64,000 nt of DNA from Hirsutella rhossiliensis (taxonomy: Eukaryota; Ascomycota; Sordariomycetes; Hypocreales; Ophiocordycipitaceae): the NCBI RefSeq assembly GCF_020360975.1, contig NW_025408670.1:186001-250000 (forward strand). Direction: 5' to 3'. Shown here piece after piece: positions 1,691-37,143 of the stretch (its first letter is position 1; each line of letters opens with the position of its first letter). The notes under the pieces are model-generated. The model saw nothing but the letters and a program-made list of their open reading frames with translations. It searched no databases and had not been told where the DNA came from. Both the position numbers and the translations under genes were made by a program.

Positions 1691-2034
1691 TTACGGTTAT
1701 CCGGATCCGTTAAGAAACTTCCTTAGCATCCCTTAGGTTAACTACCGCATTCGGTGCCTCCGGATACGGCGATAGCATCGTCTCCGCTTATAGGGATGAG
1801 GGGCGCGCCTGTTGGTGCGTGTGGGCGTGAGCCCAACCTTCAATAGCTACACATTAGTCTGTGGCCCACTGGGACCCTTGTTGGGTCTTTGAGACCCTCG
1901 TTGGGTCGTGACAACCTTCCAGTGATAGACAGCAGCCATTGGTGGGTGCCGCTACCCCCCCCCCTCGGTCATCGGGTGGAAAGATGCTCGCGGGAGAGGC
2001 TACCATACAAGAAGGCTACGGAGGGCATTTTCAA
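1691..2034. other. left junction of the cassette array
   Basis: Sequence between the RIP block and the first cassette gene. From the unit spacing, U0's inverted-repeat landmark should fall near 1,750, but it is absent, so the array is truncated or eroded here. No TATA-hairpin of the kind seen in other cassettes is visible; a sequence near 2,005-2,020 may be its decayed form. A 13-base C run lies near 1,955-1,965. No gene seen. Confidence 0.4.
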
Positions 2035-2791
2035 TATGCCGGTACCTCGTGGCGCGAAGGTGAAACGAGTGTCGACTACCACCTTCTCGATTCTTCCAAC
2101 TTTGTTGGTCACGTTCCGGCTTAGAAGGTCCCGCACTCAAGTGAATTGTTTCCTTGACGCTGGTTTGCGCAGCTTCATTTTTCCTGGCTGGTCTATTGAC
2201 AGCTTAGGCGAGGCCGACTCATTGTGGTACACTTCCGATCTGCTGGGCAGACTAAGAGAATCCCTGCTTCGTGAGGCAGCCATCCACGTCAGTCCATGCG
2301 AGACTGAGAAGACAGATACATGCCGTTAACGGATACAGTTTGCCGTCGACACGCGGTTGTGTTGGCAAGGGCCATAGAGTCTATTCGATCATGTCGGATG
2401 GGACTACCGAGTACCGACCCTCCCCCGAAGATAGAGCCGGGGACGCAGAACTGCATCTGCACTATCAAGTGGCGGAGGCCGAATGACCCTGAGGCCTTTA
2501 CGTGGTACTACAAAACGGACTGTCCTGTCTTACTGGACCAGCATACGCGTCATCGGGAGATATTCACACAGGCCCTGGATGGCGGCTTCGGATTTGCAAG
2601 GGACCCGGAGGGAGGTAGGATTATCATCAGCGACGGCAAGGTGAGTCGCATCTCGAGACCATCTTCTCTGCTTCATTGCGTCCCTTTCTCCTTCATGCAC
2701 CGCTAACGTGGACATGATGCCCGTCCAGGAGAGACACTCACCTTAGTTTATGTAGCCAAGCAGCCGAGCCTTTCGGTCCTTTCGAAGAAGT
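2035..2791 (+). pseudogene. U0 cassette gene remnant, unrecognised, frame-disrupted
   Basis: Protein-like sequence is spread over different frames: one ending near 2,329 that starts MPVPRGAKVKRVS, one with MSDGTTEYRPSPED from 2,391, and a good segment ending GGRIIISDGK just before a canonical GTGAGT donor at 2,641. A matching acceptor with a CTAAC branch-like site ends near 2,728, and the reading TLTLVYVAKQPSL follows to a stop near 2,791. The frames do not join without at least two shifts, so the gene is decayed or carries sequence errors. The basic MPxxxK start resembles those of U2, U11 and U14. No family recognised. Confidence 0.4.
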
Positions 2792-3109
2792 AGACGGTTC
2801 TTCACAACAGGATGGACCAACATGCGACTAGAGCTGCATATCGGTAATGTACAAGGAGACTTCGTGGAAAGCCTGCATAGATTGGTAACTGGTAAAGGGA
2901 CAATAGAATGAGATTCAGGATACTTTTCGTGTCTGTACAGAGGTGTAACCCTGTCCATTGGAGTTTGTATGCAGATCCATCCGTTTCGTGACTTCTTCCA
3001 TCGAACTTGTAAGTCGAACACTACATGGCTTTGAACATGACCCGGAGAGGACTCCAAGTGACGGGAAGTAGACTGAACTGTAGAAGGCGTAGGTCTCAAC
3101 CTGCAAGCG

Positions 3110-3595
3110 GTCACTTTGTTTCAAGAGACATCACTCTGAATGATCACCTCCGGAGGACTCCTTCATGACTACGGTCATTACCCCCGAAGGGCCCGAAGGG
3201 GGTGCGACCAGGCCGCAGGACTGGGCGTGAAGAGCCACGCTGCAAGAGACCCAGACTGAGTACACACCGTTCACAAGAACACCACCCCAGTGAAGCACCA
3301 CCCGAGCAACGCGAGGTAAACACCACCCAGTGAAATGCTACCGACAAACAGTCATCCGATAGGAGCGATCGGAGAGAGCGGACACCACCCGCCCTTATCC
3401 CGCAACGAGGCCGGCAGCCGAGTGAGGACGGGGGGGGCAAGTGAGCACCAGCGATCGCGCGGACGCCAGTATGTTTGTGTCAAGCTGGTCAATACCGCTA
3501 CACCATGCAAAATGAGGGCACCCCCCAATAGAGGTGTTACTAACGCGTATTATAGGCCCTTTTTTGTCCTGATAGTTTGGTATAAGGGGGAACCA
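3110..3595 (+). repeat. common region CR1 (interrupted)
   Basis: First complete copy of the structured region that heads every cassette. In order: a CCTCC/GGAGG hairpin; a C-run/GAA/G-run hairpin, here expanded with a second nested CCCGAAGGG; a longer hairpin with arms CCAGGCC/GGACTGG closed by GCA instead of the usual GAA; the GCGTG/CACGC hairpin; a variable spacer; then the inverted-repeat element. The left arm is altered here (GCCCTTAT). The right arm is split from its conserved lead-in by a 97-bp insertion. Confidence 0.8.
3478..3574. mobile_element. 97-bp insertion with 5-bp target duplication
   Basis: It interrupts the landmark that is contiguous in all other units. GTTTG is present on both sides (3473-3477 and 3575-3579), and the insert begins TGTCA and ends TGATA, which are imperfect inverted ends. 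A solo LTR fragment or MITE-like element are the options; it encodes nothing. Confidence 0.55.
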
Positions 3596-3766
3596 CAGAA
3601 CCAGGCACCAGCCACGTGACGGCCCCTCGTCATAAACTCGACTACGGAGAGGGACATACGTTTACCCGCACAAGGGGGAGGGAAACGGTGCTAAGTTAAA
3701 CCGCTAAACCGGTAGAGACAGAGTGTGTGTGCGGGACCCACCATGACTTGTCGACAAAGAGGGCGA

Positions 3767-3788
3767 CATAAAAGGGCAGAAGATGCCC
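3767..3788 (+). promoter_or_regulatory. U1 TATA box plus adjacent hairpin
   Basis: CATAAAA is followed immediately by the perfect stem GGGCA/TGCCC with a 5-nt loop. The same arrangement with a different stem occurs in every cassette, so this is taken as the core promoter of the U1 gene. Sequence just downstream (to about 3,870) is shared with U7, whose gene is a paralog of this one. Confidence 0.7.
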
Positions 3789-4132
3789 ACGCCAACAGGA
3801 TATCGAGTTGCGGCGAGACTCATTGCCACCTGCACTCATCAGAGTGACTGTCGAGGACCAGTGCAAATCGTCACACGAGGCCATCGCCGACCCTGACCAC
3901 CGCGGACAGACGCGCACCCACCTACCTACCCTGCACAGGATACCAGACCGACGGGACTTGCTTATCAAGCATCGAGGTCAGCTGACCACGCGCATGGTTT
4001 GTGTTGCTCGGCCGACACGTCACATACGCCAAGGGACAGACGTCACCCAGCCAAGTGGACCTTGCCTTTCCCACTGGATTGACCACAAACGATTTGGGAA
4101 TCGTCTCTCTATCATCCGAGGTCGGCCATCAT

Positions 4133-4744
4133 ATGATGGAGCATGACCAGGTCTCTCGTCAGCCCAACTTCTCCACCGCGGCAGGTGGCATGAGGCTAGT
4201 AGCGGAACACCTGGAGCTGTGTGAGAACTTGCCGGCGGTCGAAGGCGGTGCTCGCCTCATGCAGAGGATGGACACCATTTTGGAGCGCTTGGCGACAATG
4301 GAGCAGGCGATGCGCCGTGGCTTTTTGGATGTCGGCCAGAGAGTGGACGCGTTAGACCGCAAGGTCACTGTTACGTGAGTGGTTTGTCGCGTTTCTCCCA
4401 CGTGGTGATACTGACCGCTTTCGTTCCCGGGCAGGAACAAGAACTTCACGGCACGCATGCAGAACAGCATTGTCGTTCACGAAAGTGTCGAGCTGGCGCC
4501 TCTCTATAGTGCCCAAACGGGGGATCTGGTCCCCGGATGTCCAAGGAAGCTGGCTGATCTAGACAGACTATCAGGTAAGTGGCTTGTACACGTACTCCCG
4601 GGGGAAAGCGCTGATAAGTGGCTATAACCAGCTCAAGAGGCGGCGGAGCTGCTACGTCAGCTGGATGAACCCGTGCCGAGAACAGTAGATCAGAGAAGGA
4701 GCCAGCTGAGGCATGCTTTTGGCGTGAGGACGCGGGCCGCATGA
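4133..4744 (+). CDS. U1 cassette gene: small helical protein, paralog 1 of 3
   Basis: Three exons: 4133-4374, 4435-4574 and 4632-4744, 164 aa. Introns are canonical (GTGAGT...GCAG and GTAAGT...CCAG) in phases 2 and 1. The protein has a GGARLMQRMDTILERLATME amphipathic helix that should form a coiled coil, then the motif PLYSxxTGxxxP and a basic C-terminus. Exons 2 and 3 are 140 and 113 nt, exactly as in the U7 paralog, so the model is well supported. Similar small proteins (GNLPA...coiled coil...PL-S-TG) are common among uncharacterised fungal genes; no function is known to me. The start is the MM pair at 4133/4136, chosen because the U7 paralog starts at a comparable place; an upstream in-frame start at 4001 is possible. 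Confidence 0.8.
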
Positions 4745-4929
4745 AAAATGTGGCTCTTTGCGTTATCAGAGAGTGTCGGCGTTGGGCAGGAGTTCTCGGA
4801 TGGGAATCTGACTATATTTTTACTTACGTCGCAATAGCTTCACTTCTATGTAGAACATGAATAAGGACTCCCGATTGAACGTAAACTCTCATCTATTTTG
4901 GAACAGCATTGTAGTGACATTACTCAATA

Positions 4930-5550
4930 GATATTGGAGGAACCCTCGTTTACAAGAGATTGACTTAAGTGATCAACCCCGTAGGGCCCAAGCAGGACTA
5001 CGGATATTGACCCCCGAAGGGGGTGCGTCGAGGCTGAAGGTCGAGATGCGAAGAGCCACACTTGAAGCACACAGGATCGAGTCAGCCCGTTCACAAGAAT
5101 TCTTGACAACACTCACACCCGAGTGCAACGAGGCAAACACCTCCCAGTAAAACGCTACAGACAAAGTCCACAACACCAGGAGCGAGCAGCGCGAGCGGAC
5201 CCCTTCCCCCTTATCCCGCGACGAGCCACCCCGTAGGGCCCAAGCAGGACTACGGATATTGACCCCCGAAGGGGGTGCGTCGAGGCTGAAGGTCGAGATG
5301 CGAAGAGCCACACTTGAAGCACACAGGATCGAGTCAGCCCGTTCACAAGAATTCTTGACAACACTCACACCCGAGTGCAACGAGGCAAACACCTCCCAGT
5401 AAAACGCTACAGACAAAGTCCACAACACCAGGAGCGAGCAGCGCGAGCGGACCCCTTCCCCCTTATCCCGCAGCCGGAGGCGAGGACGCGGTAGCAAGCG
5501 AGTATTGACGAGCGCGCGGACGAGAGTATGTTTGGTATAAGGGGGAACCA
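4930..5550 (+). repeat. common region CR2 (internally duplicated)
   Basis: Carries the hairpin series twice because of a 252-bp tandem duplication. The first hairpin is CCC-GTA-GGG; the long hairpin has arms TCGAGGCT/GGTCGAGA in both copies. It ends with the intact inverted repeat, the right arm at about 5,537-5,547. Confidence 0.85.
4975..5478 (+). repeat. 252-bp direct tandem duplication inside CR2
   Basis: The block from ACCCCGTAGGG through the left inverted-repeat arm occurs twice in succession with an offset of 252 bp and is essentially identical. Subtracting one copy brings the U1-U2 landmark distance from 1955 to 1703 bp, the standard unit length. Confidence 0.85.
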
Positions 5551-5750
5551 CGGCACCAGGACCCAGACTAGGTGCGTCCCCGGTCATAAACTTGCCTGCA
5601 AGAGTCTTTGAGTCACCTGACTAGCAGACAGGGACGAGTCGCTAACGCCCAATGGGAACGTAGAGAGCAGGGCGGGATACATGCACGAAGGTGCAGTCAC
5701 AGTTTGGGGTGTGGCCACAAGCTCGAGTGGAGCCGCTCCCACGCAACGGG

Positions 5751-5768
5751 GTATAAAGGCAGGGTGCC
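5751..5768 (+). promoter_or_regulatory. U2 TATA box plus adjacent hairpin
   Basis: GTATAAA followed directly by stem GGCA/TGCC with loop GGG. It lies about 185 bp upstream of the U2 start codon. Confidence 0.7.
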
Positions 5769-5953
5769 GCCCTCGCATGCTCAGGACGAGAGTCTACCAC
5801 TTCCAGCCACTGACCGAGAGGCATCAAACCTGAACGCAGTGCGTTTTCTGTGAGAGAGATGCATGACTGTTTCTCCACTGAGGAGACAGGGCATTCTCGC
5901 TGAGGGTAGCTCAACGAAGACTTGGCCGGCGCGCGGAGCAGAATCGGCTGATC

Positions 5954-6724
5954 ATGCCGGGCAAGAATCGGCTGAAGGGCGATGGCCGTTTTGCTGAGAA
6001 GGGCTCGCAATCGGAGACGTCTTCTGGTAAGCGTTGGGAAACCCCGGCAGGGTTCTACTCGCCTGATACATTAACGAAGTGGACGACAGGGAGCAGTGCA
6101 TCAGATAGCAGCTTGGGGAGCCTGCATGAGTTCGTTGTGCCCGACTCACAGAGTGAAGGAGGCTTGGACGTGGCGACAGAGTCGTTGGATCATCAGCATG
6201 AAGTCCCGGAGACCCCTCCCTGCCGGCAACCTTCTCCAGACACGGTGTATCACCAAGTGGTGGAGCAAAGTAAGTTGAAGCGCAAAGCGGAACAGCAGCA
6301 CGGAAAGCGACGTCTGCTCGGCGAAAGCCCCAGGAGTTCCAGCCCCGTTCTGATGGAGAAGGAGGGGCATCTGCGCCTTCAGTCCGTAGTGGCCGGGCAC
6401 TCGGAGACACCATGTGCCGTGCACGCTTTTTTGAGAGAGCTGCCTTCGCTAGAGAGCGAGTTAGAGTCTGCCACCTTGAACCTTGTCCGCGCGGAACAGA
6501 GTCTGGCTGCCGTGAGGCAACTTTTCGACAAACATGGAAGTGGATGTGCCTGTGTCCACTGGCCCGGGCTTCGTAGTCCCCTCAAGATGAAACAGGAGAA
6601 GAGCCCTGGAACGCGGCCACATGTGGTGTTGGACGAGGAGGGAAAGACGGCGGAGTCGGAGACAGATTCAGACGTACCGCTTCGTAGATTCTCACGAGGG
6701 AGACGTGGTAGACTGGCGTATTAA
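5954..6724 (+). CDS. U2 cassette gene: basic, serine-rich protein of unknown function
   Basis: Single uninterrupted ORF of 256 aa from the first ATG. It opens with MPGKNRLKGD, like the U11 protein (MPGKKKKGA). The N-terminal half is low-complexity and rich in Ser, Thr and Gly; a KLKRKAEQQHGKRR stretch could be a nuclear localisation signal; residues of about 155-185 (LPSLESELESATLNLVRAEQ) form a heptad-like helix followed by GCACVHWPG; the C-terminus is acidic then Arg-rich (RRFSRGRRGRL). No family recognised. A nuclear or nucleic-acid-associated role is inferred from composition only. Confidence 0.6.
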   Translation: MPGKNRLKGDGRFAEKGSQSETSSGKRWETPAGFYSPDTLTKWTTGSSASDSSLGSLHEFVVPDSQSEGGLDVATESLDHQHEVPETPPCRQPSPDTVYHQVVEQSKLKRKAEQQHGKRRLLGESPRSSSPVLMEKEGHLRLQSVVAGHSETPCAVHAFLRELPSLESELESATLNLVRAEQSLAAVRQLFDKHGSGCACVHWPGLRSPLKMKQEKSPGTRPHVVLDEEGKTAESETDSDVPLRRFSRGRRGRLAY

Positions 6725-6860
6725 CCCTCTACTGGACTCTCCTTGCTCATCTCAACCGGGCTCTAGAATAGCGCATAAGCAGGGTGGATTTGATCACGAA
6801 ACATGCAGGGTCTCTTTGTGATGTGGACACAGAAACGTAAGCCAACCCGGCCCAGCAGGC

Positions 6861-7296
6861 CAACCCCTCGAGGATACCAACTCGAGGATAAACCCCGTAG
6901 GGCATATCTAGACTACGAATGCAATCCCCCGAAGGGGGTGCAGACAGGCCGAAGGACTGGCTGTGAAGAGCCACCCGCTCCAAACACACAGACAGTGTCC
7001 ACACCGTAGACTGGGAGGTCCAAGTCACATACTATCTGTATGGCAGTCCATACCGTGCTAACGCACACGGTCGGAACCACCACCAAAATCTTCATGAGAA
7101 CGATGAACACGCGGAACCACGGGGATAGCAAATCCCACAAAAATGCCCCGGCTACCAACGGAAGCCCGACCCCAAGAGCGAGCCAGCGGCGAGCGGACCC
7201 CTTCCCCCTTATCCCGCAGCCGGAGGCGAGGACGCGGTAGCAAGCGAGTATTGACGAGCGCGCGGACGAGAGTATGTTTGGTATAAGGGGGAACCA
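6861..7296 (+). repeat. common region CR3 (long type)
   Basis: Opens with a perfect CCTCGAG/CTCGAGG hairpin around GATACCAA, then CCC-GTA-GGG, CCCCC-GAA-GGGGG, and the long hairpin ACAGGCC/GGACTGGC. It belongs to the long type (also CR5, CR8, CR15), which carries an extra block including TATGG-CAGT-CCATA and ACCACCACCAAAA. The inverted-repeat pair is intact. Confidence 0.85.
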
Positions 7297-7509
7297 CGGC
7301 ACCAGGCACCAGACTGGGGACAAATTCGCCGGTCATTGCACGGGATTAATGCCGTGCGTCATACACTACGGGAGTGAGAGCGGGAGAAGTGGCCGTAAAC
7401 CCGGATGACAAAGGAAGGAGGGGGGGACTGCAGAGAATCATGCAGGCAACAGTCAAGAGGGTGTGGGGGATCCACACCCACTCGTCACACGGAGGTGACC
7501 ACCGAGAGG

Positions 7510-7527
7510 GTATAAGAAGCTGGCTTC
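7510..7527 (+). promoter_or_regulatory. U3 TATA box plus adjacent hairpin
   Basis: GTATAA followed by stem GAAG/CTTC with loop CTGG; identical to U12. A GTGTGG/CCACAC hairpin followed by CTCGTC lies about 40 bp upstream. Confidence 0.65.
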
Positions 7528-7529
7528 GC

Positions 7530-8585
7530 CCACTTCCACTCCCACCAGAAGAGAATCACTCTTCTCTTTTGAACTTCGTTCAACACTCCGCGCAAGCGCT
7601 CCGCTATCCTCGCCTGGCGGCTCGCTGGAAAAGCAGGACGGAGTAGAGGTGAATGTCCATTCCTCCGCATACGTGCACCCTGCGGTGCACTCGCTCCCTC
7701 ATTCCCCCGGTGAGGACCTCGATTGGTAGCCGGGAGGCGTCAAGAGGAACCCCTTGTAGTCCCCGTAGGGAAAATGGAGGTCCGTTTTTCACGCCCAGGA
7801 CCCAGAAAGCGCACTGCTACAGTGGCTACACGAGAGTGCTCTGCCTCCCAGAACAGGAGGTTCCATGCCTGCCGGCGGCTTTTACTCCTCGCCTGCGGCT
7901 CGCCACGCAGCATATGGTGACTCCTTCGACCCTGGGTACTGGAAGTGGGCTTTCCATCGAGCCAGATGCACCCGCAACGGAGTGAGTGGGATACCAGCGG
8001 TTCAGTCAGTGACAGTCCTGGTAAGGGGCAGCCTTCATCCATGAGGAGTTGGGAACGATTCCTCCCTCCGCTTCGCTCCGTCCGTCACGTCACCTGCGGT
8101 GCGGGTTCATAGTCTAGGCCATCCCTCCGGGGGTCATCATTCGAGGCGTAGCCAGGGGAAACAGGAGTCACCACGTGAGTATAAACTCAACGCATCTCGC
8201 AAGAGTCCGTCGGTAGCCAGTGCGACTTTGGTTGTGGACCAGCCCCCCCTCACGACGTAGCCAGGAGAAGGAACACTCGTTGTCATTGGAGTGAATGTGA
8301 ACACACACTTTGGACTGTAAAGTCAAAAGTCGAAGTCGAAGTCGAATGGACGGAGTTGAAGTAGGCTCGATACCATCCGTGAGTGTAAACAACTGTGTAG
8401 ACACCCCGCTTGCCTAGACCAGTGCTGGGGATAGCCTCACCTGTCCACCACCCCTAGACTACATCTTACCAGACCTGAAGATGTATCCGTTCGCTGGCGT
8501 AGAAGTGATGGAGTGACTGTACACTCCAATCTGCCCAGGCTACCAACAAGACCCAAAAGAGCATGAGCCAACCCGGCATCGTAGA
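7530..8585 (+). ncRNA. U3 non-coding-type cassette body
   Basis: No ORF here looks like protein; the longest readings are Pro/Ser/Arg-rich and not shared with the sister units. Instead, long blocks are shared at the nucleotide level with U4 (CTCCGCGCAAGCGCTCCGCT, a GTGCAC/GTGCAC hairpin, CTTGTAGTCCCCGTAGGG), with U12, and in the 3' half with U16 (GCATCTCG-AAGAGTCC). A GAAGAG/CTCTTC hairpin follows the TATA. A structured non-coding transcript is the best reading; a decayed coding ancestor is the alternative. Confidence 0.35.
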
Positions 8586-8589
8586 GTCC

Positions 8590-8627
8590 AAGCGTTTACA
8601 AGAGATAGATGGTATAAGGGGGAACCA
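8590..8627 (+). repeat. CR4 remnant (common region deleted)
   Basis: The usual lead-in GTTTACAAGAGATAGAT joins directly to GGTATAAGGGGGAACCA. All hairpins and the left arm, about 400 bp, are missing. The deletion explains why U3 is 1331 bp instead of about 1731. Confidence 0.85.
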
Positions 8628-8839
8628 CGGCACCAGGACCCAGACTAGGTGCTTCCCCAGCACTACACGGGATTCATCACGTGGTCCTACATGAAATGAA
8701 CTGGAGGGAAATGAAATGGTGAGTAAACCGGGAAGAACGGAGGGACTGAAGGGGAGACTGCAGAGCATCATGCAGGCCAAGACCAAGAGGGTGTGGGGGA
8801 CCCACCCCGACTCGTCCCCAACAGGGACACACAGAGATG

Positions 8840-8856
8840 TATAAGAGGGAGCCCTC
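8840..8856 (+). promoter_or_regulatory. U4 TATA box plus adjacent hairpin
   Basis: TATAA followed by stem GAGGG/CCCTC. A GTGGG/CCCAC hairpin precedes it by about 40 bp. Confidence 0.6.
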
Positions 8857-8859
8857 GTC

Positions 8860-9900
8860 CAACCCTCCAACAGAAGAGTCTTCTTCCTCTTCCACTCACA
8901 CAATAGTGGACGTGCCACAGGCACAGGTAGGATCTACTCTATCCCCGCCGGGGGACACTGGAGACACTGTCGTGACTGCGTCACTCGTCTTGCAGACAGC
9001 CTTTTGAACTACGTTCAACACTCCGCGCAAGCGCTCCGCTGGCCTCGCCTGCGGCTCGCAAAGAGCTGAACTAAGTAGAGGAGGATGTCCACTCCTCCGC
9101 ATACGTGCACCCTGCGGTGCACTCGCTCTGTCATTCCCGTGAGGAGAGACCATTGGTAGCCGGGGTGAGTGTGGAGGAACCCCTTGTAGTCCCCGTAGGG
9201 AAAACTGAGGATCGCTTTTGCCCCGCCGAACCAGCAGTCGACACTTTTGGACAAGAGTCCTCTTTTCTGTTGAAGACATTGATTCTGGAGCAGGTCTTGG
9301 TCATACCCCTGACCCTGAGCTCTGGCGGAGAGTGGTGGCCGCGTCATGATGAGTGACGACAGTTTGTTGCCCCGGACTCCTTCCCACTCCCACACCTGTT
9401 GATGTGTGGGTCTTTGAGGCTTCTGCCTATTCCTCCCGAGAGGGGTTTCGCAGTCATGAGTCGATATCGACGAGGATGAGCACAGGAGTGGGATCCCGTA
9501 TCCATGGGAGGCAGACTTCTTTCCTTGAACAGAGTGACACACACGGAGTGGAAAGGACGGAGACGGAGACAGTGACACAAGTCCAGTCTGTAGTACCCAC
9601 TGGGCATTCGCCCACCCACATCGGATCAGAGTGACATGAGTGGCTGGAAAGCCGGGACGGTAGAGTATCCATCTCACCTGACTGGAAAGGGACTGGTGAT
9701 AGCCTCATTGACCCTGGCCTTTGAGCACCTAAGAAGGTGTTGCACGAGTGGAATACCGGGAGCGTAGTCATCGACGGAATAGAGTGCATGTACAATGCTA
9801 GAACCGAGATGCGGTAGAGCCAACCAAGTAGACTCCTACAAGACACTTCTCATTCCACATGCCACCCGGCTACAGATAGACTCCAACAAGGAGAGTGATC
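8860..9900 (+). ncRNA. U4 non-coding-type cassette body
   Basis: Shares nucleotide blocks with U3 (9,003-9,240 against 7,570-7,800) and with U16/U17 (ACTGCGTCACTCGTCTTGCAG). An intron-like segment GTAGGA...CTTGCAG spans about 8,927-8,995, suggesting a spliced transcript. No ORF is conserved among the sister units. The remainder, 9,240-9,900, is unique and without recognisable coding. Confidence 0.35.
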
Positions 9901-9918
9901 CTTTCCCAGAGCGTAAGC

Positions 9919-10363: not shown

Positions 10364-10541
10364 CGGAACCAGGCACCAGACTGGGACCAATTCCACCATC
10401 ATTGGCGAGAGCGGTCCTACATTAGTCCGAGAGACAGGAGGACAATGGTACGTAACACCTAGGCACCCAGAGGGGGGATGGTGGAAAGGTGTGGCAGGCG
10501 CATGCATGGATCCACACCAGCTTGTCGACATAAGAGGGAGA

Positions 10542-10559
10542 CATAAAAGGACAGCGTCC
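10542..10559 (+). promoter_or_regulatory. U5 TATA box plus adjacent hairpin
   Basis: CATAAAA followed by stem GGAC/GTCC with loop AGC, a stem used by no other cassette. A GTGTGG/CCACAC hairpin lies upstream. Confidence 0.65.
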
Positions 10560-27919: not shown

Positions 27920-27929
27920 GCCCACTTCC

Positions 27930-29050
27930 ACACCCACCAGAAGAGTCCTGCTCTTCTTTCTGAGCAAAGCTCACACTCCGCGCAAGCGCTCCGCTATCCT
28001 CGGCTACGCCTCGCAATAAGGGACTGGTACCGACTGACTAGTCCACACGTTCCCGCCGCAGCCCTTGGCCGGGCTTGCGCTCCACTTGCTCCCGTGAGGA
28101 GGAATTGGTTGTCAAAGTGGAGGACTGGGTACTACTCCCGAGTGCACTCGTTCTCGCAACAGCCCCCTGGCGGGGCTTCGCTCCTCTTGTTTCCGATGGG
28201 GGAACAGTTGTCAAAGTGGATGACTTGGGTGCTTACCCCTTGTGAACGCTCACATCCCATTGCCAGTGGGCATCTTCGTGAGAACAGGTTGGATACTGTG
28301 CACGCGCTCCCACTACGCCCTGCGGGCTACGCTCCCGCTTGTTTCCCCTCTTTGAACGGGAGGGAACTTGCACTCCGCGCTCCGGCGCTCCGTCGGGATC
28401 CGTTTGCTGGCACCAGGAGGGAAACCATACCTTGGTAGGTCATGAGACAAGGTCGATACTGGGTCGGTAGCGTGCAACCGGCATGCCTCGTTGCTTCGCA
28501 GGGCTTACCCTCCTTCACACGGCCAGGCAACAGACGAGCAAGCGCAGCGCACGAGAGACAGACAAGGTGAAAGCGGGAGCGGGAGCGACCGTTGTAACTG
28601 ACACGATCAGGAAGGAGTGTTATCCCTTGGATCGAATTCGATTGGACGCCGACGTGAGTGTGGCAGTTCTCGCACCCCCCATGATCCAATCTTCGCCGCA
28701 TCACCAGCAGTAAGGTGGGCCGCCAGTGGTCTTAGGGTCTCAGGGTCCGTAGGGTTAGGAGCCGTGCGGAGCATTAGGGTTATCTGCGACATGGGCAGTC
28801 AGCGATTCGTGCAACGTGATCCACTGAAGACGACAGGTCTTGTCCTTCAGGCTCACTCATGGAGTTTTCCACTTTCCTGCTACAGACAGACAGACATGGT
28901 GATGTATTCAACCACAGCATCCGCCTGGTTACAAGTAGCAATGAACCCGGTGAGGTGATGTTGATGTGGACGTAGACGTAAGAGAGTAGAGCAATCCTGC
29001 AAGGGCTGTAGACTTGAGTCATACCAGTGAAGTAAAGGACACCAGATGGC
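27930..29050 (+). ncRNA. U12 non-coding-type cassette body
   Basis: Begins like U3 (GAAGAG/CTCTTC hairpin, ACTCCGCGCAAGCGCTCCGC), then carries two copies of a TTGTCAAAGTGGA-GACT motif (about 28,109 and 28,209) each after a GC-rich hairpin around a TGGC-GGGCTT core. No ORF looks like protein. The final 400 bp (28,650-29,050) are unique. Confidence 0.35.
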
Positions 29051-29054
29051 AAGC

Positions 29055-29416
29055 CAACCCTCGTTCACAAGAGACAGACTCCCTGTCCACCTCCGGAGGA
29101 CCCAAGCAGGACTATGGAAGTCTACCCCGAAGGGGTGCGGACGGGCCGAAGGACCGGCTGCGAAGAGCCACCCGCACCCCAGCACCACCCACGGAACCAC
29201 ACGCGTTCACAAGAATTCTTGACAACACTCACACCCGAGTGATAACGAGGCCACAACCACAAAAGTGAAATGCTACAGATATAAATCTCCCTTCCAGGAG
29301 CGAGTAGAACGAGCGGACTCCTTCCCCCTTATCCCGCAGCCGGAGGCGAGGACACGGTAGCTAGCGAGTGCCAACGAGCGCGCGGACGCCAGTATGTTTG
29401 GTATAAGGGGGAACCA
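29055..29416 (+). repeat. common region CR13 (short type)
   Basis: TCGTTCACAAGAG lead-in, CCTCC-GGAGG, CCCC-GAA-GGGG, long hairpin ACGGGCC/GGACCGGC, inverted-repeat arms intact. Confidence 0.9.
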
Positions 29417-29626
29417 CGGAACCAGGACCCAGACTAGGTTCTTCCCCAGTCCTACGTGGAACGGTCATACATTAGTCCGCACAAGGGGGAGGACAATGGT
29501 GAGTAAGAGCCAGGCGCAACGGAGTGCAGACGGCCGACGCAGGCAGAGAATCATGCATGCACTCAGACAAGAGGGGGGGCAGGACCCGCACAGACTCGTC
29601 AACGACCAGGGGGAGCAACACGGAGG

Positions 29627-29645
29627 TATAAAGGGCAGAGCGCCC
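29627..29645 (+). promoter_or_regulatory. U13 TATA box plus adjacent hairpin
   Basis: TATAAA followed by stem GGGC/GCCC with loop AGAGC. Confidence 0.65.
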
Positions 29646-29924
29646 GCCTCCATCAATCCGAAGAGGCATATAAGGCATTGGAGCGCCCACCAAGAGGTGC
29701 AAAGGAAACCTCCCAGTGCAGAACTGCCTCATCCACGAAGGGATTCAGAACCCTGTATCTTGCAAGATATGCTGATGAAAGCAGACAACTTTCCACGCTT
29801 GGGCGACATGTGGTTCCCGCGGTGACGCAAACATGCTTTTGCATTCCTATTGCCATTTGAGGGCCCAGGAGCAGCTCCCTCGATTATGTATCCTTCACTC
29901 TTTAGAGGAACCACTTCATGCGCC

Positions 29925-30552
29925 ATGGATGAGAAAGAATCTCCCCAGCAACTTGGTGTCGGGACGATATTGCGTAGCTTGCAAGTGTTGTCGCAGTGCG
30001 CAGGTAATCTACCCGCCTTCGATGACGGCCTCTGTGCTTTCCAGGCCCTCGAGAATGTCATGGCGCGTTTGGATGAGATCCAGCGGGAGAACGCTGCTAG
30101 GTGAGCCTTCACTCGGACGTGGCGTGTAGTATCAGGCCTAATGCGTGGAGATAGAGATCGGAACCACCACGTTCGCTTGGAGAACGGAGCTCGAATAGTC
30201 TGTAAGACCGGCCCGCTGAAGCCATTGTATAGCCTCGCTACGGGCGAGGTAATTCAGAGTTTTCCGCCTTGGGTACATGACGTGGATAGTCTTTGTGGCG
30301 AGTCTTCGTCCCCCCCCATTTTGACCCGTGCAGAATTGCGCTGATATTGGTATCGGCCATGTAGCTGGTGAGGTCAATCGCATTCTGACAGCATTGAAGC
30401 TCGACCTGGATGGGAGCCTTACGGAAAGGAGGGAGAGGCTATTGCTTGCTTCTGGGATCAAGCGAATGGGGACGAGGCTCTTTGCGGAGGATTTGGACCG
30501 TGCTAAGTCGCCTTGGAGATGGAGGAGGTGGAGGTGGAGGTGGAGGCGTTGA
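29925..30552 (+). CDS. U13 cassette gene: small helical protein, paralog 3 of 3
   Basis: Proposed exons 29925-30100, 30155-30272 and 30334-30552, 170 aa. Recognised by CAGNLPAFDDGLCAFQALEN, a coiled-coil helix, then LKPLYSLATGEVIQSFP and a LTERRERLLLASGI helix, matching the U1/U7 family. The first intron keeps phase 2; exon 2 is shorter (118 nt) and the second intron phase differs, so the second junction is less certain. The C-terminus runs into a TGGAGG repeat giving alternating Trp and Arg, which the paralogs lack. Confidence 0.65.
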
Positions 30553-30794
30553 CTCCCGATCGCATCTTGGACGTACAGGCACTTGTTTCGTATTGGGACA
30601 TGAGTCACATGACGATGGCTTCATCTGTCCACCGATGTACATAACAGTGTCCCTTTACTCGTGACGTCTCGTAGCAGTAATGACAGTAGACTCGTCCTTT
30701 TCATCTTGACTCGTAGCTTAATTCTACCTTCGGTGATTGTATCGACATCTCACTAGGCTACCACCACTATCTACTAAGATCAAAGACCTCACAT

Positions 30795-31159
30795 CGTTTA
30801 CAAGGTGAAACGTCCAAGTAATCCAATTCTCACTCAACCCCCGGAGGGCCCAGGCAGGACTACGGAATTCTACCCCCGAAGGGGGTGCGCACGCGCCGAA
30901 GGTGCGGGTGTGAAGAGCCACACTCAAGAACATAGATTGAGTACACCGTTTACAAGAACATCGTGAACAACACACACGACCCGAGTGCAACGAGGCCACA
31001 CCACCAGAGCCCTAGGGCTACAGACAAACAGTCGACCCAAGAGCGATCGGAGAGAGCGGACCCCTTCCCCCTTATCCCGCAGCCGGAGGCGAGGACACGG
31101 AAACAAGCGAGGGTCACCGAGCGAGTGGACGCCAGTATGTTTGGTATAAGGGGGAACCA
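30795..31159 (+). repeat. common region CR14 (short type)
   Basis: CCCC-CGGA-GGG, CCCCC-GAA-GGGGG, long hairpin ACGCGCC/GGTGCGGG (compensatory relative to the other units), GTGTG/CACAC hairpin, inverted repeat intact. Confidence 0.9.
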
Positions 31160-31367
31160 CGGAACCAGGACCCAGACTAGGTTCTTCCCCAGTCCTACGT
31201 GGAACGGTCATACATTAGTCCGCACAAGGGGGAGGACAATGGTGAGTAAGAGCCAGGCGCAACGGAGTGCAGACGGCCGACGCAGGCAGAGAATCATGCA
31301 TGCACTCAGACAAGAGGGTGTGGGGGATCCACAGCAGCTCGTCAACCCAGAGGGTGCTACCAAGAGG

Positions 31368-31385
31368 TATAAAGGCAGAGATGCC
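31368..31385 (+). promoter_or_regulatory. U14 TATA box plus adjacent hairpin
   Basis: TATAAA followed by stem GGCA/TGCC with loop GAGA; a CTTTCC/GGAAAG hairpin lies in the leader just before the start codon. Confidence 0.7.
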
Positions 31386-31442
31386 CGCTCATTCATCTGA
31401 CAAGGGTTTCTTCATCCTGCTTTCCAAATCCCTGGAAAGGCG

Positions 31443-32330
31443 ATGCCGTGCAAAAAGACCACGGTGATGCTGACCACTGCGACAGAGGCTGGAGACCATC
31501 CGTCCGGGACCACGAGAGCGGAGACTGAGTTTCACACCTACTTCGGAGGCATACTGTTGCAAATGGCCTGGGAGGACACGCATTCGCCAATGGAGTGCAT
31601 TCCCTCCTCCCAAGGGGTGGATGTTCCGTTGTGGCAGCCCAAGGCGGTGCAATGCGTCAGAGACTTGGTCGGTGCTTGTCGTGGACAGTCATGTGGATCG
31701 TTGTTTCTGGAAATGAAGAACCGAAGCGGTTCTCTGTCACGTAATCGCGGCCGGGATCATCTAGGGCGAACTGTGCGGGAGCCTTGGTGTGCCTTGACCG
31801 TCCGGTTTCGAGATCCCCACTCGCTTTTGCAGAGGCTGCGAGAGCTGCCGAAAACACTGAAAGGTAGTCTCTTCTGCTGGGTATGGATGGCGGCAGAGCC
31901 CCAATATCTATGGCGAGGCTGTCCCGCCGCGTCGACTTGTGTCCTACTGATAGGCGGAGTTCCCGCTTCTTACTCGGTCAGGAGGGTAGCACAGATTCTT
32001 CTGCAGGAGTCGTCCCTAGGCCGGAGGTCGGACGGCCATGACTTTGCCAGTGACTGGTGGTTGCGGTCTTTGGCCGATGAGGAGGATTTCGAATACTGGT
32101 ACAACTGCCACGCGTATCCCTTGCAGCGCGTGCACAGAGCGTTTGAGGTCCATCCTGGTGATAGCATCGAGGTGTACGACCTGGATTTGGAAGCCTCAGA
32201 GGGCGCCGTTGGGGTGTACCCTGGCCCGTCTGTTTCTGCAAGTAGCGACCTGGACCCTGATGGCTGCTCCTCCAGACAGCCGCTGCGAGAGTTGGACGTG
32301 AATGTCGCACCAGGTAGACCCTCGGTATAA
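31443..32330 (+). CDS. U14 cassette gene: unknown 295-aa protein
   Basis: The longest intact cassette ORF, from ATG 31443 (MPCKKTTVML, again a short basic start). Middle part is Cys/Trp-rich with segments QCVRDLVGACRGQSCGSLFL, WCALTVRFRDPHSLLQRLRE and SLFCWVWMAAEPQYLWRG. C-terminal third is acidic (LADEEDFEYWYNCHAYPLQ, IEVYDLDLEASEGAVGVY). No transmembrane helix or signal peptide is convincing. No family recognised. Confidence 0.6.
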   Translation: MPCKKTTVMLTTATEAGDHPSGTTRAETEFHTYFGGILLQMAWEDTHSPMECIPSSQGVDVPLWQPKAVQCVRDLVGACRGQSCGSLFLEMKNRSGSLSRNRGRDHLGRTVREPWCALTVRFRDPHSLLQRLRELPKTLKGSLFCWVWMAAEPQYLWRGCPAASTCVLLIGGVPASYSVRRVAQILLQESSLGRRSDGHDFASDWWLRSLADEEDFEYWYNCHAYPLQRVHRAFEVHPGDSIEVYDLDLEASEGAVGVYPGPSVSASSDLDPDGCSSRQPLRELDVNVAPGRPSV

Positions 32331-32469
32331 TTGAGCCTGGCGTGAAGCTTCTCATGATGATTATGGTGATTCTGATTTGGAATTCGGATGACTGTGAGTG
32401 GCCGAACCCAAGAGTGACGGAAGTAGACTGTAATTGTAAAAGAGCGTAAGCCTCCACCCCTCCAGTAGA

Positions 32470-32909
32470 CCAACCCGCGTTCACAAGGGACAGCCTCCAA
32501 CATCACCTCCGGAGGACCCAAGCAGGACTACGGATATTTACCCCGAAGGGGTGCGGTCAGGCCGAAGGACTGGCTGCGAGAAGCCACCCTGCAAGCACAC
32601 CAGACAGTGTCCACACCGTAGACTGGGAGGTCCAAGTCACATACTACTTATATGGCAGTCCATACTGTGCCAACGCACACGGTCGGAACCACCACCAAAA
32701 AACTGGACGAAACCGATGAAAACACAGAACCACGGGGATAGCAAATCCCACAAAAATCACCCGGCTACCAAAGTAGTCCCAGCCCCAGGAGCGAGCCAGA
32801 GGCGAGCGGACCCCTTCCCCCTTATCCCGCAGCCGGAGGCGAGGACACGGAAACAAGCGAGGGTCACCGAGCGAGTGGACGAGAGTATGTTTGGTATAAG
32901 GGGGAACCA
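32470..32909 (+). repeat. common region CR15 (long type)
   Basis: CCTCC-GGAGG, CCCC-GAA-GGGG, long hairpin TCAGGCC/GGACTGGC, long-type block with TATGG-CAGT-CCATA, inverted repeat intact, followed by ACCAC/GTGGT where most units have ACCAG/CTGGT. Confidence 0.9.
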
Positions 32910-33147
32910 CGGAACCACGCACCAGTGTGGTGACTAATCCCCAGCCATTACGTGAGCAATCACGTGTCGTTCAGTCTGCTGACAAGGGGGAAGGAGACTC
33001 GTCATAACACGCAGACGGACGGAGGGAGGAACGTGAGTGGTGGGATAAGTGAGAGGGACCCACCCCAGCTTGTCGCAGCTTCCGCCAGGTTGCATGCACG
33101 ATGACATCAGTCCGGACTGAGAGGACGGATGCACAGATAACGGAGTG

Positions 33148-33166
33148 TATAAAGGCATGAGATGCC
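33148..33166 (+). promoter_or_regulatory. U15 TATA box plus adjacent hairpin
   Basis: TATAAA followed by stem GGCAT/ATGCC with loop GAG. An ACGTGA/TCACGT hairpin near 32,949-32,965 is shared with U10. Confidence 0.65.
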
Positions 33167-33601
33167 GCCCACTCTCCTTTCCTTTCTTCTATTTCTGACC
33201 TGTGGTCACCTTTGGGTTTCCTACTCCACGCTCTTGTAGCACCTGCTTTCAGCAAGCAACAGAGTCATCTGTCGAACAGAGAGTCTCAACCAGACACAAG
33301 ATTGTCCCGCGCACACGGCGCATAGTTGAGTTTCTACCCCGGGCATCCGGACATCACGGAAAGTGATTGCGTATTCCGTTCATTTTTGGAATGGTTTGTA
33401 TTTCGAGAGAAATGATATGAAAAGGCGAGACAAGTGTTGACGGTCGTCTGTGCAGGGCAGCGTGTCTGCATTCAATGCATTGTTGCTCGGAGGAGTTTCT
33501 GGAGCAGCCAGTGCGGTACAGCACGCAATTTCTCTCTCTCACTGGGTGGGCCAAGCCTTAGCTGGAGAGCGCTCGGCTACTACTTCCACGGAGTAGGCAG
33601 G

Positions 33602-34162
33602 ATGAGTCTGGCACTTCATTCCCGGACAGTTTCTGGTGACTGTCCCTGTTCCTCGCCAGCTGCAGTGGCCACGGATTGCAACAATTGCAATCACCTTGTC
33701 TGTTCTCCTTTCTGGTCCCATCGTTGGTGTAAGCGATGGTTCATCATTCATTTGGTGACGACTCATGGCTTGTCGACTTCCTCCCTTTCCGAGGGAATAC
33801 ACAAGTGTCTACGTCCACGGGATTTGGATTACCGAGTGGCGCAGCGTGCGCAAGATGGCCTCTTTTATCATGCAGTGTTGTTGCGTCTTGGCCCAGACAC
33901 CTCGGGACTGAGTCGGGAAGAGTGCGTCAGATTGGAGAGCATGCTGGAGTCAGCCTTTGATACAACCGGTATGACAGACGAGTGTGTTCGGATGTCTACT
34001 GTGGCGTCGATGCCGTGCTGCCTGTACCGCATGAAGCCGGAGATGCACTTTTGGGCTAAGGAGATGTCGAGGGATGGTTCCGTCGTCGCTGGAGACGAGT
34101 GGCTTCTGTATGACCTTTTGACGGAAATGGAGGGTGCGGGTGTGTTTAGCACAACTATCTAG
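33602..34162 (+). CDS. U15 cassette gene: unknown protein of at least 186 aa
   Basis: ORF with an ATG at 33602 giving 186 aa. The frame is open upstream to about 33,434 (including WRALGYYFHGVG, like U8), and a TTGACGG...GTGCAG acceptor-like sequence ends at about 33,456, so an earlier exon may exist. Visible features: a Cys cluster CPCSSPAAVATDCNNCNHLV, RRDLDYRVAQRAQDGLF-like segment near residue 90, and an acidic C-terminus. No family recognised. Confidence 0.55.
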   Translation: MSLALHSRTVSGDCPCSSPAAVATDCNNCNHLVCSPFWSHRWCKRWFIIHLVTTHGLSTSSLSEGIHKCLRPRDLDYRVAQRAQDGLFYHAVLLRLGPDTSGLSREECVRLESMLESAFDTTGMTDECVRMSTVASMPCCLYRMKPEMHFWAKEMSRDGSVVAGDEWLLYDLLTEMEGAGVFSTTI

Positions 34163-34297
34163 ATGGGTTGTCCAAGAAGTGGGACATGTTCATGAACGAC
34201 CTTTTCTTTTTCCTTGAACATGCCGTGAAAAATAGATGAGAAGTCGTAAGTGGTTGCTATCAGGCGTTTACAAGAGAGCCACCCAAGATCGTAGATT

Positions 34298-34643
34298 CCA
34301 CTCTCCAAGGGATACCACTCTGAAGAGCACCGCCGGAGGCCCATATCTAGACTACGGACATAACACCCGAAGGGTGTGCGGACGGGCCGAAGGACCGGCT
34401 GCGAAGAGCCACCCTGCAAGAGACCCAGACGGAACCACACCTCAAACACGACCCGAGTGAAACGAGGTAAACACAACACAGTGAAGCGCTACAGATGATA
34501 ATCTCCCTTCCAGGAGCGAGCCAGCGGCGAGCGGACCCCTTCCCCCTTATCCCGCAACGAGGCCAGCAGCCGAGTGAGGACACGGGAGCAAGCGATCGAA
34601 GAGAGCGCGCGGACGCCAGTATGTTTGGTATAAGGGGGAACCA
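34298..34643 (+). repeat. common region CR16 (short type)
   Basis: First hairpin with GATACCA loop, GCC-GGA-GGC, ACACCC-GAA-GGGTGT, long hairpin ACGGGCC/GGACCGGC, inverted repeat intact, ACCAC/GTGG follow-on as in CR15. Confidence 0.9.
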
Positions 34644-34858
34644 CGGAACCACGCACCAGTGTGGCTCCTCCCCAGTCGTAGACACCGAGTGCAACGAAGA
34701 GTGTGGCTGTACAGTCTCTGGAGTGGGTGGAAGAGGCTGGTGTGTAACGCCCAGTCAGAGCGGAGGGAAGACGGCGGAGGCTTGCAGAGGAACCCTCATG
34801 CATGCAGACTGACAAGTAGGTGTGGAGCCCAAGGAGGGTGACACCCATCGCCGAGAGG

Positions 34859-34875
34859 TATAAAGGTCCTAGACC
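34859..34875 (+). promoter_or_regulatory. U16 TATA box plus adjacent hairpin
   Basis: TATAAA followed by stem GGTC/GACC with loop CTA. GGTGT/ACACC hairpin upstream. Confidence 0.65.
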
Positions 34876-34879
34876 GCCC

Positions 34880-36020
34880 ACTTCAACAGAACCCAGAAAG
34901 GCTGGGCTTCTTCCTCATCCAGCAGTGGACATTGCGAAGCACAAGGTGAGGCTCTTTCACAACGGAGTGAGGCGACGACGCATTCTCTATCAAGCACAAG
35001 AGTGCAACTCATCTCACTCATATCACGGGCAGTGACAGTACTCATTGCTCAGTAGTTGCGCAGAGCAGTGCATTCCACCACCACAGCCAGCAGCGTTGCT
35101 ATTCTAACCCCATCCGGGGCCCACGGGAGACACTATCGTGACTGCGTCACTCGTCTTGCAGACAGCTCTTTTCTTACTCCTCGCCTGGCGGCTCGCTTAA
35201 AGATGCCGAGTGTGACTCTCTTCTTCCACTTGGAAGATGCCCTGTTGTCCATCGTTGTTGATGAATGAATCACTTGTATTCCCTCCCCGCGCACGGAGTG
35301 CTGGCTTGAGAAGCACAAGAGTCAGGTTCTAGAACTGGGACGGGGGGAAACGGCCGAGTGCCTTAGCACATTCCTCCCACAGACAGTGGGAACAGTTAAT
35401 ATGCGTAGGGGAATCCAGTCGCGGTAGCCCGAATCCTTGAGGTTACGAGGAGAGCTTGGCTCCTTGCCTGAGGCCTCCCCCCTTCTTCCTGTCACACGCT
35501 GTGCGAGATTTGCGGTCTAGCCCATCCCTCTGACAGAGTCGGTGAGGCGGTAGCCCGGGGAACGGAATGACCACGCAAGTGTAGACCCAGTGCATCTCGT
35601 AAGAGTCCATTGGTAACCAGGCGATTGTACTGTAGACCAGTCGCCCGCTCCTCGTAACCTCGTCACATAGACGGGAAGGATGACTGGAAGTGAATATGAA
35701 TGTGAATATGATTATGTGAATGCACACTTGGGACTACCGGTATAAAGGCGAAGGTATTAGGACTTGACTCGAAGTCATCATGGATTGCACCCGCAGACGT
35801 GGCCTTGAACGTGGAGGGACACTCCACACATCCCTCATCGACAGCTGGGAATAGCTATCGGAGCGGATCGACGAATGAATACACTCAGCTGGATTTGGGA
35901 GTCCTTCCATCGATGTGGTTGTAGATTGAATCTGCCATCATCTTGTGCACCATGCTGCTACGCTCTGTCCAGAACCAATCAGGCTACATACAGACAAGAG
36001 CACGGAAGAGAGTGATCCTT
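34880..36020 (+). ncRNA. U16 non-coding-type cassette body
   Basis: Contains a CCCAG/CTGGG hairpin, a probable intron GTGAGG...CTTGCAG (about 34,946-35,161) whose 3' end matches U4, and a 3' part (35,500-35,660) that matches U3 with many substitutions. The short ORFs are not preserved in U17 because of indels. Best read as a spliced non-coding transcript; unproven. Confidence 0.35.
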
Positions 36021-36025
36021 TGAGA

Positions 36026-36372
36026 CCAACTCCTCCAAGAGATACCACCTCGAGGATAACCGCCGGAGGCCCAGAGCATGACTACGGATATTTACCCCGA
36101 AGGGGTGCGGACGGGCCGAAGGACCGGCTGCGAAGAGCCACCCTGCAAGAGACCCAGACGGAACCACACCTCAAACACGACCCGAGTGAAACGAGGTAAA
36201 CACCACAGAGTAAAACGCTACAGATAATAATCACGACCCCAAGAGCGAGTAGAACGAGCGGACCCCTTCCCCCTTATCCCGCAACGAGGCCAAGAGGCCG
36301 AGTGAGGACACGGGAGCTAGCGAGTGTTAACGAGCGCGCGGACGCCAGTATGTTTGGTATAAGGGGGAACCA
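36026..36372 (+). repeat. common region CR17 (short type, last)
   Basis: CTCC-AAGAGATACCACCTCGAGG hairpin, GCC-GGA-GGC, CCCC-GAA-GGGG, long hairpin ACGGGCC/GGACCGGC, inverted repeat intact. It differs clearly from CR16 although the body that follows is nearly identical to U16. Confidence 0.9.
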
Positions 36373-36587
36373 CGGAACCACGCACCAGTGTGGCTCCTCC
36401 CCAGTCGTAGACACCGAGTGCAACGAAGAGTGTGGCTGTACAGTCTCTGGAGTGGGTGGAAGAGGCTGGTGTGTAACGCCCAGTCAGAGCGGAGGGAAGA
36501 CGGCGGAGGCTTGCAGAGGAACCCTCATGCATGCAGACTGACAAGTAGGTGTGGAGCCCAAGGAGGGTGACACCCATCGCCGAGAGG

Positions 36588-36604
36588 TATAAAGGTCCTA
36601 GACC
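36588..36604 (+). promoter_or_regulatory. U17 TATA box plus adjacent hairpin
   Basis: Same as U16: TATAAA then GGTC/GACC. Confidence 0.65.
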
Positions 36605-37143
36605 GCCCACTTCAACAGAACCCAGAAAGGCTGGGCTTCTTCCTCATCCAGCAGTGGACATTGCGAAGCACAAGGTGAGGCTCTTTCACAACGGGTGAGG
36701 CGACGACGCATTCTCTATCAAGCACAAGAGTGCAACTCATCTCACTCATATCACGGGCAGTGACAGTACTCATTGCTCAGTAGTTGCGCAGAGCAGTGCA
36801 TTCCACCACCACAGCCAGCAGCGTTGCTATTCTAACCCCATCCGGGGCCCACGGAGACACTATCGTGACTGCGTCCTCGTCTTGCAGACAGCTCTTTTCT
36901 TACTCCTCGCCTGGCGGCTCGCTTAAAGATGCCGAGTGTGACTCTCTTCTTCCACTTGGAAGATGCCCTGTTGTCCATCGTTGTTGATGAATGAATCACT
37001 TGTATTCCCTCCCCGCGCACGGAGTGCTGGCTTGAGAAGCACAAGAGTCAGGTTCTAGAACTGGGACGGGGGGAAACGGCCGAGTGCCTTAGCACATTCC
37101 TCCCACAGACAGTGGGAACAGTTAATATGCGTAGGGGAATCCA
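36605..37143 (+). ncRNA. U17 non-coding-type cassette body, truncated
   Basis: Near-identical to U16 up to GGGGAATCCA at about 37,143, where it stops and unrelated sequence begins. Differences from U16 are single-base run-length changes (GGAG/GGG, GGGAGAC/GGAGAC) and one AC loss. This is the right end of the array. Confidence 0.4.

Follow-up and report, generated by a model that had tools for sequence, protein, structure and literature searches.

Chromosomal arrays of equal-length one-gene units in Hirsutella rhossiliensis as probable integrated components of a multi-component CRESS-type replicon

The genome of Botrytis cinerea ssDNA virus 1 (BcssDV1; ssDNA, single-stranded DNA) is described as divided among four segments, 1690, 1690, 1669 and 1707 nt in length, each with a single gene. 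These have two common regions, one long and one short, the latter with a stem-loop origin, and the Rep is geminivirus-like and has a putative intron; the same source gives eight segments for the nanovirus faba bean necrotic stunt virus (FBNSV) (consulted sections of PMC10731770). Fusarium graminearum gemytripvirus 1 (FgGMTV1) is a mycovirus whose multipartite genome of circular ssDNA has three segments, for Rep, capsid and accessory functions (consulted sections of PMC11708013), and geminivirus-like Rep genes have been reported from fungal chromosomes, some in multiple copies and, in Tuber melanosporum, in a transposon-like form (consulted sections of PMC3198968). Geminivirus genomes are described as reverting to wild-type size, probably via encapsidation, and satellites as holding padding that adjusts their size (consulted sections of PMC3187698). 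Here we analyze a 64,000-nt stretch from the genome of the nematode-parasitic fungus Hirsutella rhossiliensis (81.8 Mb, 40 contigs), located at C4:186001-250000 and hereafter called the window, which contains an array of one-gene units of nearly constant length (family A), together with a sister array on contig C5 and an array of a second family (B) on contig C2. We conclude that these three arrays very probably consist of components of a multi-component rolling-circle replicon (CRESS type, circular Rep-encoding ssDNA; geminivirus/genomovirus-like) that have been integrated head to tail into the chromosomes, because unit lengths are narrow, A and B share 3′ hairpins, TATA placement and five gene families, and family B encodes a Rep.

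Units in the window are delimited by the landmark GGTATAAGGGGGAACCA, whose 17 exact occurrences in the window are at the 17 positions listed in a preliminary description of this DNA (expectation from shuffles with up to three mismatches, 0.04 matches). The landmark-to-landmark spacings, from left to right, are the lengths of U01 to U16 in Table 1. As had been noted, 13 of the 16 fall within 1,696–1,754 bp; these average 1732.5 bp with a standard deviation (SD) of 17.8 bp, the three irregular intervals (1955, 1331 and 6969 bp) being excluded from both values. The rearrangements proposed for those intervals were found as a perfect 252-bp tandem duplication in the first and a long terminal repeat (LTR) element in the last, and the lack of any copy of the 3′ hairpin-region repeat families in the 1331-bp unit (U03) is compatible with the suggested deletion. 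The count of about 18 units comprises 16 that run from landmark to landmark, one that is truncated at the right end, and a remnant on the left that lacks its left landmark. The five units described as having no open reading frame (ORF) are in part an effect of introns, since U01 contains a three-exon gene and U07 and U13 are similar to it (U13 weakly).

A survey of the rest of the genome, proposed in the preliminary description as a check, brought to light family B, which has another landmark and a spacing that is also narrow but of different length. Its boundary is a 34-nt stem-loop (GCCCCCTATTACTTAAGTTTGGTTTATAGGGGGC, in transcription orientation), found on C2 and C12. A 22-base pattern from this stem-loop has 184 matches in the genome at up to three mismatches (reversed control, 0), and its 32-base core is found without mismatch 126 times (control, 0). 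At least 150 B landmarks lie on C2:4,388,265-4,737,052. Among the matches listed, 112 of the 134 intervals between same-strand neighbors on C2 measure 1600–2300 bp, with a mean of 1918.3 bp and an SD of 48.3 bp that exclude the other 22 intervals, 9 of which lie within 0.06 of two or three units. Strand switches at C2:4388265-4737052 number 15 among the matches listed, so that blocks of units are mutually inverted.

Pattern and BLAST searches also identified the decayed sister of the window array on C5, with landmark spacings of 1713 and 285 bp, and window-related unit tails on C2 and C12. The C5 array shows, by eye, heavy C-to-T-like decay resembling repeat-induced point mutation (RIP); an inverted, truncated unit with a gene of the F1 family described below adjoins it (L028:4500-5740). 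A unit tail in AT-rich surroundings elsewhere on C5 (3686 kb; L052:1479-2074) carries a third type of landmark, TTTGGTATTAGGGCGGCACC, which has one exact genome copy (C5:3686605) and was therefore not treated as an array. Other matches to the window landmark at two mismatches are background, as the pattern read backwards gives 5: one unrelated repeat accounts for those on C16, C17, C23 and at C5:1070396 (L024–L027), and those on C1 and C3 do not resemble the units. Misassembly is common in repeats, but an assembly artefact deserves hardly any credence here: unit sequences differ, one unit has received an LTR insertion, the C5 array has decayed in a RIP-like manner, and identical proteins are also present on 12.5- and 14.2-Mb contigs that match no listed contig of this assembly.

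The Rep of family B has a geminivirus-like HUH nuclease domain with motifs I–III and is encoded by units in L065 and L069–L074. Its putative SF3 helicase region behind the nuclease, read by eye, contains a Walker A motif (GRPRSGKTEWA), a Walker B motif and motif C. Divergent and decayed Rep copies, which are perhaps from other lineages, lie at C5:864095-864487 and C1:3462152-3462541, with 4 and 7 in-frame stops, respectively.

The suggestion that some process constrains unit length is supported both by the second narrow-length family and by compensation between ORFs and padding. In the window, seven units have an intact single-exon ORF of 150 aa or more; among them, ORF length varies with an SD of 145 bp and unit length with an SD of only 20 bp, and ORF length is correlated with the length of the rest of the unit at r = −0.992. 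Nine B units with ORFs of at least 147 aa gave corresponding values of 124 bp, 17 bp and r = −0.991. As the same gene family occurs in a 1.73-kb unit in A and in a 1.92-kb unit in B, length is a property of the lineage and not of the gene. Unit length is probably the component length, held by selection on circle size, and the compensating padding fits a size adjustment like that in geminivirus satellites.

Near-identical units record how the arrays have been copied. The B units L057 and L064, situated ~150 kb apart, are 98.7% identical from the base of the stem-loop to 42 bp into the next landmark, and their sequences differ beyond the copied unit (on the left flank of L057, over the 44 bp compared); a third copy of the part searched lies at C2:4395893. 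Similarity between L069 and L073 likewise starts no more than 13 bp from the landmark, and L062/L066 were duplicated as a block running through the preceding unit. Taken together, the stem-loop-to-stem-loop copy and the L062/L066 block indicate that copying is sometimes unit-wise and that block duplication occurs as well. In the window, U06 and U08 are nearly identical (Table 1) while U07 and U09 are mutually unrelated. Such duplicates (U06/U08, U16/U17), the multi-unit blocks and the homogeneity of the stem-loop, with its 126 exact 32-mers, could also be produced by an ordinary tandem gene cluster in which unequal crossing-over together with gene conversion maintains the unit length and Rep is a passenger. 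We consider this very improbable, because the genes of different units have no detectable mutual similarity, U07 and U09 differ despite lying beside the U06/U08 duplicates, unit lengths are fixed though ORFs vary, and the two lineages hold different lengths with homologous genes.

At the window boundaries, the inverted-repeat arms reported earlier correspond to an 11-bp inverted repeat, TTCCCCCTTAT/ATAAGGGGGAA, with ~70 nt between the arms in the boundary that was folded; the boundary comparison covered all 17 positions except 3579, 8611 and 22433. In 16 of 17 window units, a TATA box lies downstream of the landmark at a distance of 225 ± 15 bp, compared to 0, 1 and 1 of 16 in three equal-sized control windows; one is also present at 26 of the 43 distinct B landmarks (46 records). 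Folded as ssDNA, the B stem-loop scores better than most shuffles (z −2.7, 6/200 as good). Short words are strongly enriched ahead of the boundaries (two of the 17 window boundaries omitted), namely AGCGAG and AACGAG in the 180 nt before the A landmark and GGAGGGA and CGACTGG in the 250 nt before the B stem-loop; these may be iterons.

The 3′ regions provide a second common element. Among the 16 window tails examined (alignment and hairpin counts omit U03), 15 contain a hairpin with a GNA loop, and the alignment displays compensated variants such as ACCCC-GAA-GGGGT, ACACCC-GAA-GGGTGT and ACCCCC-GAA-GGGGGT. Perfect triloop hairpins in these tails total 19, which is not above shuffles (mean 23); 15 of the 19 have a GNA loop compared to a shuffle mean of 1.7, although this is no independent count because the tails are homologous. 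Similarity between the 3′ regions of B and the window reaches 90% identity over 96 nt, and the 43 distinct B tails contain CCGAAGG in 41 cases and a perfect GNA hairpin in 29. An Rfam search of the window array returned three matches, all below their gathering scores. Boundary repeats and 3′ hairpins thus form common regions across units, as in segments of the BcssDV1/FgGMTV1 type, and the arrays further agree with such segments in having one gene per unit of near-equal length (some units are without a clear ORF) and a Rep in one component (in B). Single-gene cassettes, conserved hairpin boundaries and large arrays would also fit a eukaryotic counterpart of integrons, in which a site-specific integrase captures cassettes at hairpin sites. 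This alternative appears highly improbable: integron cassettes vary in length, most units here have their own TATA box, and no integrase of the tyrosine type was recognized among 20 ORFs in a Pfam scan, with no search aimed specifically at integrases.

To compare gene content, proteins of 18 window units, 30 B unit records (29 distinct units, as L058 and L064 overlap) and three C5 pieces were grouped into families at E ≤ 1e-5, a threshold that distant kinship may escape. Five families are common to A and B: the zinc ribbon (U11, 76%), Rad52 (U09), F1 (U01, U07 and, weakly, U13), the U15 family and the U00 remnant (36%). Overall, at least eight families without detectable mutual similarity at this threshold are present, counted among Rep, Rad52, zinc ribbon, F1, U15, U00, a B-only family of six units, U06/U08 and U02; 12 of the 51 records have no relative in the comparison. 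The U09 protein belongs to the Rad52/Rad22 family (Pfam PF04098, E 7.1e-32, 110.9 bits versus a cutoff of 20.3). Its N-terminal annealing domain is recognizable, with RAD52 structures in the PDB matching at E 3.9e-24, and PHROGs returned Rad52-type matches for it and two weak matches. U11 encodes a Zn_ribbon_3CxxC protein (Pfam PF13695, E 1.1e-22). The spliced three-exon model of U01 matches HRG_012872 of H. rhossiliensis with 100% identity over 99%, and relatives of this F1 gene occur in Ustilaginoidea virens, Beauveria and H. minnesotensis. No Pfam match above cutoff was obtained for the intact ORFs of U02, U08, U10, U14 and U15. The U10 protein is predicted to adopt a ferredoxin-like fold (mean predicted local distance difference test score, pLDDT, of 70), and neither BFVD nor PDB yielded a match to the model at E ≤ 0.001, so that the protein is left without an assigned function. 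U10 and U14 co-align with database and B-type proteins (19% identity) and are unlinked in the unit protein comparison (E 1e-5), and the two are not treated here as a common family. Outside the arrays, open-frame relatives of the Rad52 (65%) and zinc-ribbon (72%, 54%) proteins were found at C9:3056759-3057454, C1:11004045-11004488 and C16:440796-441254; they are possibly lone units or host genes.

If the arrays are integrated replicon components, one landmark-to-landmark unit would represent one component, comprising an origin-like inverted repeat, a TATA promoter at fixed offset, a gene, padding and the conserved 3′ hairpin region. Each unit would replicate, or would once have replicated, as its own circle, with replication started at the boundary by the Rep of one component (the Rep gene being found in lineage B). 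Selection on circle size during encapsidation or movement would hold lineage A at ~1.73 kb and lineage B at ~1.92 kb. Units would be joined at their origins through Rep nicking-joining or through annealing at common repeats, perhaps aided by the element's own Rad52-like protein. A further reading, less likely than not, is a fungal ssDNA virus-like replicon of at least eight components with its own Rad52-type annealing protein, which might live as chromosomal arrays of well over 100 origin-delimited segments that unit-length circles leave and re-enter, and which would amount to a eukaryotic, virus-derived cassette library with its own length gauge.

Several observations weigh against an origin of the arrays from such a replicon. 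The window boundary, folded as ssDNA, performs no better than shuffles (z −0.7, 40/200 as good). The consensus TATTAC stands at the edge of the B stem-loop and only partly inside the loop, without an agreed nonanucleotide, and no counterpart of this type is evident at the A boundary. The TATA pattern is missing at 17 of the 43 distinct B landmarks. Motif II is missing from one of seven aligned Rep proteins (P0005, a gene model) and altered in two (P0006 and P0007); the array copies score at or slightly below the Pfam cutoffs, and the helicase domain Gemini_AL1_M, searched separately on two exon pieces of L074, remains below cutoff (E 0.068 and 0.1). Two of six Rep units are longer (2018 and 2199 bp), and in most near-identical pairs other than L057/L064 and L069/L073 the similarity starts 102 to 482 bp before the stem-loop, starts inside a unit, or spans the preceding unit. 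No Rep was found in the window, nor one elsewhere that belongs to lineage A, so the window's assignment to the replicon rests on homology to family B. In IMG/VR, searched without a positive control, neither the origin nor the zinc ribbon, the Rep nuclease or the helicase piece had a relative. Lastly, Pfam recognized no capsid protein in 20 ORFs, with structure modeling confined to U10 and the Rep nuclease domain.

As no capsid gene was recognized, both a virus and a capsidless replicon are compatible with the arrays. A capsidless, CRESS-virus-derived transposon or plasmid-like element based on Rep, which amplifies in the genome and whose length is set by replication or repeat annealing and not by packaging, is conceivable though rather unlikely. 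It would accommodate the lack of a recognized capsid gene and the 184 chromosomal landmark copies without an IMG/VR relative, and it would resemble the geminivirus-like element of Tuber melanosporum with its terminal inverted repeats and transposase ORFs (consulted sections of PMC3198968). However, one gene per equal-length unit is the pattern of multipartite viruses, and a transposon offers no reason why each different gene should occupy its own full-length unit. The capsidless element shares most of its mechanism with the integrated multi-component replicon that we favor, and the two are not mutually exclusive.

Table 1 Features of the array, in window coordinates
Feature	Position	Strand	Description
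U00	1751..3578	+	leftmost decayed unit; left landmark absent; right landmark shifted 102 bp relative to other units
U00 gene remnant	within 1751..3578	+	family also in family B (L062_7639)
U01	3579..5533	+	1955 bp; intron-split F1-family (coiled-coil-like) gene 4133-4744; 252-bp tandem duplication
252-bp tandem duplication	4976..5471	+	in U01 tail
U02	5534..7279	+	1746 bp; ORF 5954-6724, 256 aa, no Pfam match
U03	7280..8610	+	1331 bp; conserved 3′ hairpin region not found; no clear ORF
U04	8611..10346	+	1736 bp; no clear ORF; stretches common to U03, U12, U16
U05	10347..17315	+	6969 bp; split by LTR retrotransposon
LTR retrotransposon	11225..16454	+	236-bp LTRs, 98.3% identical; internal ORFs; later insertion into U05
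U06	17316..19014	+	1699 bp; 98.4% identity with U08
U07	19015..20736	+	1722 bp; F1-gene relative
U08	20737..22432	+	1696 bp; ORF 21155-21943, 262 aa
U09	22433..24163	+	1731 bp; ORF 22856-23611, 251 aa, Rad52/Rad22-family protein
U10	24164..25907	+	1744 bp; ORF 24622-25278, 218 aa; predicted ferredoxin-like fold (moderate-confidence model)
U11	25908..27661	+	1754 bp; ORF 26714-27181, 155 aa, Zn_ribbon_3CxxC protein
U12	27662..29399	+	1738 bp; no clear sense-strand ORF
U13	29400..31142	+	1743 bp; weak F1-gene relative
U14	31143..32892	+	1750 bp; ORF 31443-32330, 295 aa, no Pfam match
U15	32893..34626	+	1734 bp; ORF 33602-34162, 186 aa; directly similar to four family B units
U16	34627..36355	+	1729 bp; no clear ORF
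U17	36356..37143	+	truncated right-end unit; near-identical to U16 over compared part
3′ common region (example)	36049..36162	+	short hairpins such as CCCCGAAGGGG, GNA loops, compensating changes between units
Boundary (example)	36271..36372	+	left arm TTCCCCCTTAT, ~70 nt, right arm ATAAGGGGGAA; origin-like inverted repeat

The LTR insertion in U05, judged by its nearly identical LTRs, is a relative age mark for the array. On the right, the array ends abruptly at 37143, and a 579-aa cysteine-rich ORF follows at 37999-39738 of the window. The left flank (window 1-1700) is AT-rich and looks, by eye, like RIP-mutated repeats.

If our explanation is true, fungal multipartite ssDNA replicons exceed the three or four components described, include a gene for recombination and can be kept in the form of chromosomal arrays, which would then constitute a fossil, perhaps living, record of component gain in multipartite genomes. 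Two lineages with homologous genes and different set lengths would, in that case, make the long-standing question of what determines component size in ssDNA viruses directly testable.

Bacterial chromosomal (super)integrons resemble the arrays in being large arrays of one-gene cassettes with structured boundaries; they differ in their variable cassette length, their tyrosine integrase and their bacterial hosts. Nanoviruses and the alpha- and betasatellites of geminiviruses share with them several one-gene circular components of uniform size and, in the satellites, size-adjusting padding. These are components of plant systems of ~1.0–1.35 kb each, and we know of no Rad52 and no chromosomal arrays among them. 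A literature search over titles and abstract beginnings, in which subscription journals and bioRxiv were scarcely covered, returned no description of such arrays. Endogenous fungal Reps are described as interspersed and accompanied by terminal inverted repeats and transposase ORFs, and equal-length one-gene arrays are not described in the consulted sections of PMC3198968. FgGMTV1 differs in its three segments and its exogenous nature (consulted sections of PMC11708013). The closest known case is BcssDV1, which likewise has one gene per segment and a segment length almost equal to that of the window units; it differs in having four segments, a capsid gene and purified viral particles, and the consulted sections of PMC10731770 describe no segment for Rad52 or a zinc ribbon, both of which are present here. 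Compared to BcssDV1, the arrays are chromosomal and comprise at least eight gene families in two set lengths, with no capsid recognized by Pfam in the 20 ORFs. Equal-length one-gene segments and endogenous fungal Reps are therefore already known; what appears to be new, judging from the literature consulted, in which we found no precedent, is the size of the arrays, the Rad52 and zinc-ribbon components and the two set lengths.

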